Shown piece after piece: positions 1,958 through 9,876 of a stretch of 64,000 nt of DNA. Positions within the stretch are counted from its first letter, which is position 1, and each line of letters starts with the position of its first letter. Below the pieces are notes generated by a model. The model did no database searches. It was not told the DNA's origin and saw only the letters and a list, made by a program, of their open reading frames with translations. The stretch spans positions 1,922,001 to 1,986,000 of the forward strand of contig NZ_CP107007.1 of assembly GCF_025725645.1 (NCBI RefSeq), in the 5' to 3' direction. The position numbers were made by a program, and so were the translations under genes. Origin of the DNA: Halomonas sp. GD1P12. GTDB lineage: Bacteria > Pseudomonadota > Gammaproteobacteria > Pseudomonadales > Halomonadaceae.

Positions 1958-2035
1958 ATGGCCGGGTTCCTGTGACGTTTTAACCTTGCATGGGCAAGCA
2001 GATCTCTACACATCAGACCGGCATCTAATAGTTCG

Positions 2036-2051
2036 CATAATATATATTATG
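2036..2051. promoter_or_regulatory. Perfect 16-base AT palindrome
   Basis: CATAATATATATTATG at 2036-2051 is its own reverse complement. It lies in the AT-rich gap between the ectC terminator and the lipoprotein gene at 2157, about 105 bases before that start. It could be an operator or part of a promoter. No cognate regulator is evident, and AT-rich palindromes can arise by chance. Confidence 0.3.
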
Positions 2052-2156
2052 TTAAATCATATGGCAGTCATTGAGTAAAACCCTTAACATCATTGGACAA
2101 CCGGACGCACTTCTTCATATTATCCCAGCTCTTGTTTGGTAAGGGACTTCCGATCT

Positions 2157-7374: not shown

Positions 7375-8532
7375 TCAATCGCGCCGTTTTGTGGGTGAAG
7401 CGCCCAGACGATGGCGCTGCTGCTCGGTGTGCCACTGCTCGGCCTCGGTATGCAGATAGCGGCTGGTGGTTTCAAGACGCGCATGGCGCGCGCTTTGGGC
7501 CAGGTACCTGAGTTCGATACCCGACTGCGCCTGGTGAGTAATCGACGTATGGCGCAGCCAGTGGGGTGTCGCGTGGCGTAGGGCCTCGATGTGGCCCGGC
7601 GCGCCCTGCTCCGCCTCCAGCGCCTCGGCGGCCTGGGCGAAGGTTTTTTTGATCAGCCGGTAGAGCTGGTTGTCGCTGATACCGCGAACACCGTCGAGCG
7701 CGCGCAGAAGCGGCGTTGCCTCGTCAAACGCAGGAAGCGATGAGAGCCCCAGCGCCAGGCGCCACTCGGCCAGTGCGCCCAGCATATCCTCGGGCAGAGG
7801 AATGCGTGCGGTTTTCTGCCCCTTGCCGGTCACCACCCACCACCAGCGCCCTTCCCTGAAAACGAAATCCTCCATACGGGCGCTGGCCATCTCGCTAATA
7901 CGCGGGGCCAGCAGATAGGCAAAACTGAAAATGAACCGGCACCGCGCCCGCTCATAGCGCTGACGGGTACTCGCGCCCTCCTCCGTATCTCCATTCAGCC
8001 AGCCCCAAAGCCATTGCCAAAGCTCGTACTCCAGGTAACGCTCGACGCCAAGTGTTTGGTTATTGAGCCGACGCGACTTGTCGCGCATCAGCCGAAACGG
8101 GTTGTGCGCGACCCACCCGGCCTCGACCAGCCAGCCGTAAAGCCCTTGAAGTATCACCAGACTTTGACGCCGGCTCGCCGGCGACAGCCCCGCACGAAAC
8201 GGCCGCCAGGCGGGGCTCGAGCGCGGCGCCCCACCCCCCACCCAGCGCGAGGCCGGCTGCGGGTCTTCGAGAAACGCCTCGAATTCACGCAGCCCTTCCC
8301 GATCGAGTTCGCCCAAACGCCGCCGTGTGCTCGAGAGCCACAGCAATAGCCGCTGCGCCTCGCGCCGATACGCCTTGAAGGTTTGCGGGCTCTCGCGGTA
8401 CTCGGCTAGCCATAGTCCGACCGCCTCGGCGTCGCTTGAAGCCGTAATATGGGCAACGCCTTCTGCCCTGCCGACGACGTCAAAAACCCTCGAAATATCA
8501 TTATCTTGAAGGGTGTAAACCTCGTTACTCAC
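7375..8532 (-). CDS. Tyrosine recombinase/integrase
   Basis: A 385-residue site-specific recombinase with a complete catalytic set: Arg211 (LLAPRISEM), Lys238 (GKGQK), His324 and Arg327 (HWLRHT), His350 (ARHARLETT) and nucleophile Tyr359 (TSRYLH). The N-terminal region contains a SAM-like core-binding domain. It looks intact and active. It starts with GTG at 8530-8532 behind an AGAGG ribosome site. Only 20 bases upstream begins an array of 17 seven-base repeats, and beyond it is a divergent KfrA-like gene. No phage, IS or cassette genes accompany it, and it is far from the tRNA gene, so a resident function is more likely than a recent element. XerC/XerD are different in sequence and size. Confidence 0.88.
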   Translation of the reverse strand: MSNEVYTLQDNDISRVFDVVGRAEGVAHITASSDAEAVGLWLAEYRESPQTFKAYRREAQRLLLWLSSTRRRLGELDREGLREFEAFLEDPQPASRWVGGGAPRSSPAWRPFRAGLSPASRRQSLVILQGLYGWLVEAGWVAHNPFRLMRDKSRRLNNQTLGVERYLEYELWQWLWGWLNGDTEEGASTRQRYERARCRFIFSFAYLLAPRISEMASARMEDFVFREGRWWWVVTGKGQKTARIPLPEDMLGALAEWRLALGLSSLPAFDEATPLLRALDGVRGISDNQLYRLIKKTFAQAAEALEAEQGAPGHIEALRHATPHWLRHTSITHQAQSGIELRYLAQSARHARLETTSRYLHTEAEQWHTEQQRHRLGASPTKRRD

Positions 8533-8552
8533 TACGCTTTACCTCTTTAATA

Positions 8553-8671
8553 CCTCACGCCTCACGCCTCACGCCTCACGCCTCACGCCTCACGCCTCAC
8601 GCCTCACGCCTCACGCCTCACGCCTCACGCCTCACGCCTCACGCCTCACGCCTCACGCCTCACGCCTCACG
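8553..8671. repeat. Heptanucleotide tandem array, 17 perfect copies of CCTCACG
   Basis: The unit CCTCACG (plus strand; CGTGAGG on the minus strand) is repeated 17 times without a single mismatch over 119 bases, followed by a partial CC. Every reading frame on the minus strand meets TGA within 21 bases, so it is not coding. It lies 20 bases upstream of the recombinase start codon, within its probable 5' leader. Perfect identity and a unit length that is not a multiple of three fit slippage-prone expansion or contraction. Each minus-strand unit contains GTG and GAGG. Confidence 0.95.
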
Positions 8672-8701
8672 CCAAATTCTGCTGCCACAGCTACAAAAAC
8701 T

Positions 8702-8773
8702 CAAGATAATACGTGTAATCTTGACTTTATTGACAGTATCATAAATAAAATTACATATTACGTTTTACGTAAT
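8702..8773. promoter_or_regulatory. Cluster of dyads between the recombinase and KfrA-like genes (probable operator)
   Basis: An imperfect 22-base palindrome spans 8702-8723, with outer arms CAAGAT and ATCTTG and centre ACGT; two symmetric base pairs mismatch. A second dyad, ATTACGT-TTT-ACGTAAT, spans 8757-8773. Further ATTAC/GTAAT half sites lie between. The stretch is much more AT-rich than its surroundings. KfrA-family proteins are known to repress their own promoters by binding inverted repeats, so binding by the downstream gene's product is a fair inference. Confidence 0.55.
8730..8758 (+). promoter_or_regulatory. Possible promoter of the KfrA-like gene
   Basis: A consensus -35 TTGACA at 8730-8735 is followed after 17 bases by ACATAT at 8753-8758. 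The -10 match is weak, but the site sits among the dyads and about 75 bases before the gene start. TTGACT at 8721-8726 is an alternative -35. Confidence 0.35.
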
Positions 8774-8835
8774 TATTGTTTTAATCGAAAAGCTGCCGCA
8801 AAATGGTGTCTTTACCAGTCATTGGAATCGACATC

Positions 8836-9876
8836 ATGGCGCGTAGCGGTATTCAGTACGGGGACGTTCAACAGGCGATCGATACGCTGTTGAGTCAGGG
8901 AGACACTCCCAGCGTTCAGCGTATTCGCGAGGTGCTGGGCACCGGCAGTTTCACCACCATCAGTGAGCACTTTCGTCAGTGGCGCAGTGAGCGCGAGCAA
9001 AATCGCGACGTGCCGCCGCCCAGAGGCGTGCCGGAAGTGGTGGCCAACGCGGCCAGCTCGCTTTGGGCGCAGGCTCAGGAGGTCGCCAACGAAGCGCTGG
9101 CCCATTATCGGGAGGATGCCAATCGCCAAGTGCTCGAGGCGCGCGAAGCCGCCGAGCAGGCCGACCAGAACGCTCTTGACGCCGAGCAGCGCGAGAAAGC
9201 ACTGACAGAGCATTTGCGTCACACCGAAGCGAGACTCGAAGCGTTGAGCCGTGATCTGGCCACGCTCGAATCGACCCAGAGTCAGCTCGTCGAGCAGGCC
9301 ACCCGCGCCGAACAGCAAACCGAACGCTCTCATCGCGCCTTCGAGGCGTTAGAGAAGCGCTATCACGTGCTGGAAGAGAGCGGCCTAAAGGAGCGTCAGG
9401 CGCTTCAAAGCGGCTGGGAGCAGCGGCTGAGCCAGGAAGAGGAGCGCAACGAGGCCTCGGAAGGCAAGCTCATGGCGCTACTGGATACGCTCAGACAGGA
9501 GCGCGCTCAGCAGGACAAGGCGCACCAAAAGCGTGTGAATCAAATGGAGCAAAAACTGGGCGCTCTGGAAGAGTCGCTGGCAAGCGAAAAGCAGGCGCTG
9601 CAGCAAAAAAGTCGCGACGAGCAAAGCGCCCAGGAGTGCCTGGCGCGACTCGAGCAGGAGAATCAGCGCCTCAAGGAGCAAAACGCGACGCTGGCGCGAG
9701 AACGCGAAGAGACCGAACAGCGTCTGATAACAACGCGCTCGCAAGCGAGCGAGGCTAACGCTTGGCAGCAGACGCTCAATGAGCAGGTCGAGGCGCTTCA
9801 TCGCCAGCTCAAGGAGTTGCCTCAAACCCTTGAAGCGGCGCGCCAAAAAGAAGAAACGAAAAAGCCACTCCGCTGA
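8836..9876 (+). CDS. KfrA-like DNA-binding coiled-coil protein
   Basis: The N-terminal 60 residues (MARSGIQYGDVQQAID...GSFTTISEHFRQWR) match the KfrA N-terminal DNA-binding helix-turn-helix domain known from plasmid regulators. The rest, to residue 346, is almost continuous charged alpha-helix rich in Glu, Gln, Arg and Leu heptads, a long coiled coil. Plasmid KfrA proteins are autoregulators with a proposed filament or partition role; here the gene is chromosomal in context. The start at 8836 fits the family; an in-frame ATG at 8803 would add 11 residues. It is divergent from the tyrosine recombinase across the repeat and dyad region, suggesting shared control. It has no obvious forward terminator. 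Confidence 0.8.
   Translation: MARSGIQYGDVQQAIDTLLSQGDTPSVQRIREVLGTGSFTTISEHFRQWRSEREQNRDVPPPRGVPEVVANAASSLWAQAQEVANEALAHYREDANRQVLEAREAAEQADQNALDAEQREKALTEHLRHTEARLEALSRDLATLESTQSQLVEQATRAEQQTERSHRAFEALEKRYHVLEESGLKERQALQSGWEQRLSQEEERNEASEGKLMALLDTLRQERAQQDKAHQKRVNQMEQKLGALEESLASEKQALQQKSRDEQSAQECLARLEQENQRLKEQNATLAREREETEQRLITTRSQASEANAWQQTLNEQVEALHRQLKELPQTLEAARQKEETKKPLR

Follow-up and report, generated by a model that had tools for sequence, protein, structure and literature searches.

The recombinase-KfrA locus and its control region

The window analysed here (64,000 nucleotides of the Halomonas sp. GD1P12 genome, which is one contig of 3.78 Mb) carries a tyrosine recombinase gene, for which we use the working name xerK, facing a divergent kfrA-like gene across a shared control region (Table 1). 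An earlier note, made from the sequence alone, had described this arrangement, and both the positions of the open reading frames and Pfam searches bear it out, the recombinase matching Phage_integrase (E 9.5e-16) and the product of the divergent gene matching KfrA_N (E 3.8e-26). The note's statement that no phage, IS or plasmid genes surround the pair also holds, as a Pfam scan of nine neighbouring genes found no such family and the neighbours of the locus are core-type genes.

Table 1. Positions of the features discussed, numbered from the first letter of the window.
Feature	Position	Strand	Description
Canonical XerCD dif	2030..2057	+	Sole match in own genome at ≤3 mismatches
Tyrosine recombinase gene xerK (working name)	7375..8532	-	385 aa, GTG start, full catalytic set
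Heptamer array (CCTCACG)17	8553..8673	.	Genome-specific expansion, outside module
28-bp dif-like site, putative XerK crossover site	8699..8726	.	11-bp arms, 6-bp centre
Promoter-like match for kfrA	8730..8759	+	10/12 consensus, overlaps second dyad
Second dyad, putative KfrA operator	8748..8775	.	Centre 49 bp from centre of 28-bp site
kfrA-like gene	8836..9876	+	KfrA_N DNA-binding domain and long coiled-coil tail; ATG at 8836

The catalytic residues R211, H324, R327, H350 and Y359 are those named in the note, with the lysine being K237 and not K238 (residue 238 is a glycine), and all six are invariant in a set of 20 XerK sequences. XerK thus has the full catalytic set of a tyrosine recombinase, as would be expected in a single-recombinase Xer/dif system. 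It is neither XerC nor XerD, since it scores far under the cut-offs of the equivalog models (72.7 bits against a cut-off of 335 for XerC, 50.2 bits against 330 for XerD) and falls into a separate clade in the recombinase tree. The AlphaFold model has a mean pLDDT of 78.7 and is weak in the catalytic tyrosine loop (residues 351-359, pLDDT <50). Its best Foldseek match is XerH on difH (E 9.3e-8, TM 0.36 and 0.40), a predicted structural similarity that fits an Xer-type role of XerK and does not prove it.

The divergent protein combines a KfrA_N domain with a long helical tail, as does KfrA of plasmid RA3, which represses its own gene via an operator over its promoter and must bind DNA for the plasmid to be stably maintained (PMC7783346). 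The window gene likewise has a putative operator over its own promoter-like sequence. The RA3 operator consists of five 9-bp direct repeats (PMC7783346), whereas that of the window is a dyad; the window gene is moreover chromosomal and paired with a recombinase. Of the several dyads reported between the two genes, two are kept across relatives. One is a 28-bp dif-like site, which was absent from the earlier account, and the other is a TTACGTA-type dyad that begins 51 bases from the start of this site in 40 of 45 loci, at a centre distance of 49 bp. The second dyad is a putative KfrA operator and overlaps a promoter-like match for kfrA (promoter-like matches were called by consensus alone, with 2 found against 0.5 expected in shuffles). 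In predicted DNA folding the region around the site does not stand out (z -1.68).

The heptamer array to which the note had drawn attention is real, comprising 17.3 copies of CCTCACG with 100% matches, and a 14-mer taken from it is matched 16 times, whereas 100 shuffles gave no match. Among the loci compared it is confined to the window genome, a 91%-identical relative having about three degenerate units in its place. We therefore rejected the array as a functional part of the module, because it is missing from the loci of relatives.

A 28-bp two-arm site near the terminus

A near-palindromic 28-bp site (≤3 mismatches) was found in 45 of 47 recombinase-bearing loci scanned in the family (Halomonadaceae). 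Its commonest arms are ATTCAAGATAA (28/45) and ATTCAAGATTA (31/45), and in the window 9 of 11 arm positions match; the six central bases vary, taking 25 forms in 45 loci. Conserved arms around a variable centre give the site the appearance of a tyrosine-recombinase crossover site, and a two-arm site of about 28 bp with a short centre, placed beside the gene and present once per chromosome at the terminus, is what a single-recombinase Xer/dif system has. The two loci missing the site, L127 (G098) and L130 (G116), belong to genomes in which, as in G096, kfrA lies 9-19 kb from the recombinase, and in all three the 28-bp site adjoins the relocated kfrA. Apart from these exceptions the two genes are far from rarely adjacent: kfrA is divergent from and adjacent to the recombinase in all of the best 30 own-family matches.

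At ≤2 mismatches the site occurs in 70 of 80 family genomes, with exactly one copy in 55, and the window chromosome likewise has one. The remaining 15 have further matches; the good ones among the matches listed are on small contigs, and some at 2 mismatches, found on large contigs of G006, G007 and G085, are no more than chance would give, as a reversed control matched in 3 genomes. No site was found at ≤2 mismatches in seven genomes without XerK, so that site and recombinase co-occur (Fisher p 3.8e-8, kinship ignored). Three genomes have the recombinase without the site at this threshold (G100, G112, G118), of which G100 and G112 match at 3 mismatches. When three recombinase-less genomes were read directly, no site was seen upstream of kfrA; the operator dyad was kept in two of them and was weaker in the third.

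The canonical XerCD dif, overlooked in the earlier note, lies 5.3 kb from xerK. In the stretch 1501-2057 of the window, it follows the ectoine synthase gene at a distance of about 130 bp. The genome encodes a XerD scoring 357.6 bits, over the cut-off, and a second gene that is XerC-like (237.6 bits) and groups with the XerC rows of the tree. The peak of cumulative GC skew, computed over 204 kb of this genome, is 26 kb away from dif and 33 kb away from the 28-bp site. Across 103 family genomes with both features on one contig, the distance between XerK and dif spans 2.9-32.7 kb with a median of 5.4 kb, although these values are not independent because they largely reflect shared synteny; G016, G059 and G069, with the two on different contigs, and family genomes without a dif search were left out.

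XerK itself is encoded by 112 of 121 family genomes (E 4e-81 or better, counting three broken or split copies). The nine genomes without it comprise two poor assemblies (G041, G048) and seven good ones (G084, G097, G101, G104, G107, G117, G119), five of which retain kfrA. Since kfrA persists without XerK and the site, it is not merely the partner of XerK. Six well-assembled genomes of the 121 manage without XerK with XerCD alone. The seventh, G104 (L119), was found without XerD over the cut-off, dif, XerK or the 28-bp site, and this situation falls outside the account of replacement given below.

The reverse loss is seen in three draft genomes (98-100% complete), G083 and G106 of one genus and G108 of another, in which we found no XerC or XerD (best scores 81-87 bits, against 341-366 for XerD in relatives) and no dif at ≤2 mismatches. 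All three keep a XerK 43-45% identical to that of the window together with the 28-bp site, which is perfectly symmetric in G083 and G106 and matches at 8/11 in G108. The site is 4.3, 5.8 and 15.4 kb from the GC-skew peak in G083, G106 and G108, respectively, the skew being weak in the last. These genomes represent two lineages, and no Xer/dif system other than that of XerK was recognised in them. The tree places G108 with G085, and G083 together with G106 beside G102; as both sisters have XerD, two losses of XerCD are the simplest account.

Relatives in other families, on plasmids and in known Xer systems

Within the order, XerK was found at E<1e-40 in 23 of 390 genomes, 17 of them from the family of the window. 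The triad of XerK, an ATTCATGATWA-type site and a divergent KfrA-like gene is present in G250, G337, G439 and G455, so that the pairing extends to four genomes of other families. It is also present in two Oleispira MAGs (L155, L156), with KfrA_N confirmed by Pfam in both; Pfam did not confirm this domain in L160, the G439 contig (L160 and L254 are the same contig and were counted once). The triad lies within about 2 kb of xerL in G439, G455 and both Oleispira MAGs, and 94 kb from dif in G250. The kfrA-side dyad of these other Pseudomonadales triads is not of the TTACGTA type. G465 and G338 have weaker homologues and no clear site. A search with phmmer and a home-made profile beside 20 order-level homologues found kfrA clearly in L052 and weakly in L046, KfrA_N being confirmed in both, and no clear adjoining kfrA beside the rest. 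In G169 (L046:3298-3325) a perfect 28-bp palindrome with other arms lies between a more distant recombinase and a KfrA_N gene.

On plasmids, XerK has matches in 1350 PLSDB records at E ≤1e-20. When 45 rows were taken from across this ranking, 29 (H49-H77) proved to be the same 33.5%-identical protein, in 24 cases annotated as Tn4401 TnpR; the protein so named is a tyrosine recombinase. Seven plasmid loci were opened, of which five have the pairing. In four betaproteobacterial plasmids a KfrA_N gene is divergent from the recombinase. Their palindromes match at 11, 9, 10 and 8 arm positions, the 8/11 case being weak (0.15 chance matches expected per 150 bp), and the centre is separated from an operator-like core by 49, 49, 49 and 50 bp. 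L310 has two palindromes scoring 8/11, of which the one giving the 50-bp operator distance was chosen. A Halioglobus plasmid has a KfrA-like gene, a site of the chromosomal type and a recombinase 90.5% identical to the chromosomal one of G250, an identity that indicates that the module moves. The other two loci opened have no KfrA in view.

The pairs on pA81, pBPHY02, pMSMB2035, pRK1-2 and pRR3-57 thus resemble the window in having a divergent KfrA-like gene with a palindrome between the two genes, and plasmid recombinases, including the Tn4401 resolvase, are homologous to XerK at 33-41% identity. They differ in being plasmid-borne and, save for pRR3-57, in their arm sequences, and the palindrome of pBPHY02 is weak (8/11); the Tn4401 resolvase, known here from the search listing alone, is transposon-borne. 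In the open-licence literature, no title or start of an abstract among the matches listed links KfrA with a dif-type site or describes such a module.

The 28-bp site also occurs on its own on small replicons. Eight extra copies (≤1 mismatch) among the matches listed are on contigs of 4.4-46 kb, and site-bearing contigs carry Rep3 initiators (L134, L137, L139, L141, L143), relaxases (L134, L136, L137) or TraI (L140). The stretches of these contigs that were searched, some contigs being covered in part, contain no recognisable XerK homologue. A second match in G193 was left uncounted, as its contig has a dprA-like gene and may be chromosomal. Named Halomonas plasmid records related to two of the site-bearing contigs were also scanned, eight in all and one of them in part; four bear the site at ≤3 mismatches, one of the four being the G002 plasmid itself. 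A contig of G002, a genome of the same genus as that of the window, is identical to a plasmid of Halomonas sp. Bachu 37. One site-bearing contig (contig 2 of G081) encodes an RdgC-FtsK gamma fusion (L135:2913-4112, + strand; E 7e-88 and 8.6e-10).

The closest functional comparison is with XerL, the experimentally shown single-recombinase dif system of Legionella (PMC9765430). Homologues of about 30% identity across the order were considered as XerK orthologues and rejected, as the tree identifies them as XerL and its relatives. XerK (22 rows, 100/95) and XerL (18 rows, 99/97) form two distinct groups, neither of which joins XerC or XerD (two long-branch rows, L051 and L053, were left out), so that XerK does not belong to the XerL clade. 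XerL and its kin occur in Marinomonas, Oleispira, Thalassolituus, Saccharospirillum, Rickettsiella and others. Many of their loci have palindromes of the ATTTCCGATAA type, 32 of 80 named loci passing the threshold (L155 by its XerK-type site alone), with a score that is tilted towards the motif and has no shuffled control. Only 7 of 65 XerL-bearing genomes of the order have XerD over the cut-off, with weaker matches in G436, G394, G322, G398 and G461, and all nine order genomes without XerL have XerD; XerL-type recombinases are widespread in Pseudomonadales, mostly where XerD is missing. In one genome with XerD (G174; L037:9063 and L037:10434), the open reading frame of xerL is preceded at about 80 bp by a palindrome of its own and followed at 45 bp by a canonical dif. 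In G190 the XerL-type palindrome pattern is matched twelve times over many contigs, possibly as a repeated element.

The XerK system shares with XerL/dif of Legionellales (PMC9765430) a single recombinase, related at about 30% identity, and a palindromic site close to the terminus, with two arms and a length of about 28 bp; that paper also reports plasmid copies of the site for Coxiella. It differs in its separate clade, its other arms, the placement of its site beside the gene and kfrA, and its co-residence, in most genomes, with XerCD and dif. With XerCD/dif it shares the 28-bp 11-6-11 layout, the terminus position and a tyrosine recombinase, whereas XerCD/dif has two recombinases and asymmetric arms. 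XerH/difH and XerS/difSL belong to other phyla and are the sole systems of their hosts. Like the XerK system, each has a single recombinase whose gene adjoins the site (PMC9765430).

A second candidate system for chromosome dimer resolution

Tyrosine recombinases need two sites, which limits a single chromosomal site to recombining with its sister copy or with a site on another replicon. XerK would bind the 11-bp arms of two copies of the site and exchange strands within the 6-bp centre. Two copies would be present only when the chromosome is dimeric or has a sister, when a plasmid has formed a multimer, or when a plasmid and the chromosome each carry one. The main outcome would be resolution of chromosome dimers by a system that stands beside XerCD and can take its place; plasmids that have borrowed the 28-bp site could have their multimers resolved as well. 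KfrA would bind the dyad overlapping the kfrA promoter and so repress its own gene, and the near-fixed 49-bp placement of the operator suggests that it may also regulate or steer recombination. To our knowledge, no KfrA partner accompanies XerH/difH or XerS/difSL. Judging from the genome comparisons, the locus is probably a plasmid-type single-recombinase Xer/dif module for dimer resolution located beside dif, constituting a second system able to take the place of XerCD. We infer that its main job is to resolve dimers, redundantly with XerCD, and that KfrA is a repressor and possibly an accessory factor; since most XerK genomes also carry XerCD and dif, dimer resolution by XerK would not be needed there.

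An alternative in which chromosomal XerK mainly recombines site-bearing plasmids, resolving multimers or integrating them reversibly, with no real role for the chromosome, would account for the extra sites (≤1 mismatch) among the matches listed on 4.4-46 kb contigs, several with plasmid genes, and for the triad being found on plasmids. We nevertheless consider it unlikely, as a single chromosomal site near dif is kept in nearly all XerK genomes and persists where XerCD and dif are gone, and most of these genomes show no plasmids. Kinship with plasmids, in particular the 90.5% identity between the recombinases of the Halioglobus plasmid and the G250 chromosome, could point to the integrase of a mobile element, or its remnant, settled near dif. 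The presence of XerK in nearly the whole family at a mostly constant place, the core-type neighbour genes and the scarcity of phage homologues (6 records) make this reading very improbable, and an integrative element or an inversion would have two sites flanking a segment, while the window's own genome has one site and no flanking pair.

The proximity of xerK to dif would also suit an accessory acting with XerCD at dif and not at a site of its own, but XerK has its own conserved two-arm site, which is lost together with it, and XerK is retained in genomes that lack XerCD and dif, so that this role is scarcely credible. The earlier note had proposed a switching module built around the repeat array, an idea that drew on the divergent genes and the dyads in their shared control region. 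It did not survive comparison: inversion or excision needs two sites and the chromosome has one, and the array is specific to this genome and missing in relatives, which leaves a DNA switch with next to no probability. The switch, invertase and island readings were thus rejected on site number and conservation.

We return to the reading of XerK as a second dimer-resolution system. On balance, and with some reserve, we favour the view that the terminus of Halomonadaceae hosts two independent systems, XerCD/dif and a plasmid-derived one made up of XerK, its site and KfrA as built-in regulator or architectural partner, and that this near-universal machinery is in live turnover in the family, some lineages having switched to the latter and others having dropped it. 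A family with two candidate systems a few kilobases apart, and with members that have lost either, makes it testable how one chromosome-dimer-resolution system is exchanged for another. If this view is correct, it would provide a concrete context for KfrA-like proteins of chromosomes, and would point to plasmid multimer-resolution modules as a source of new chromosome systems.
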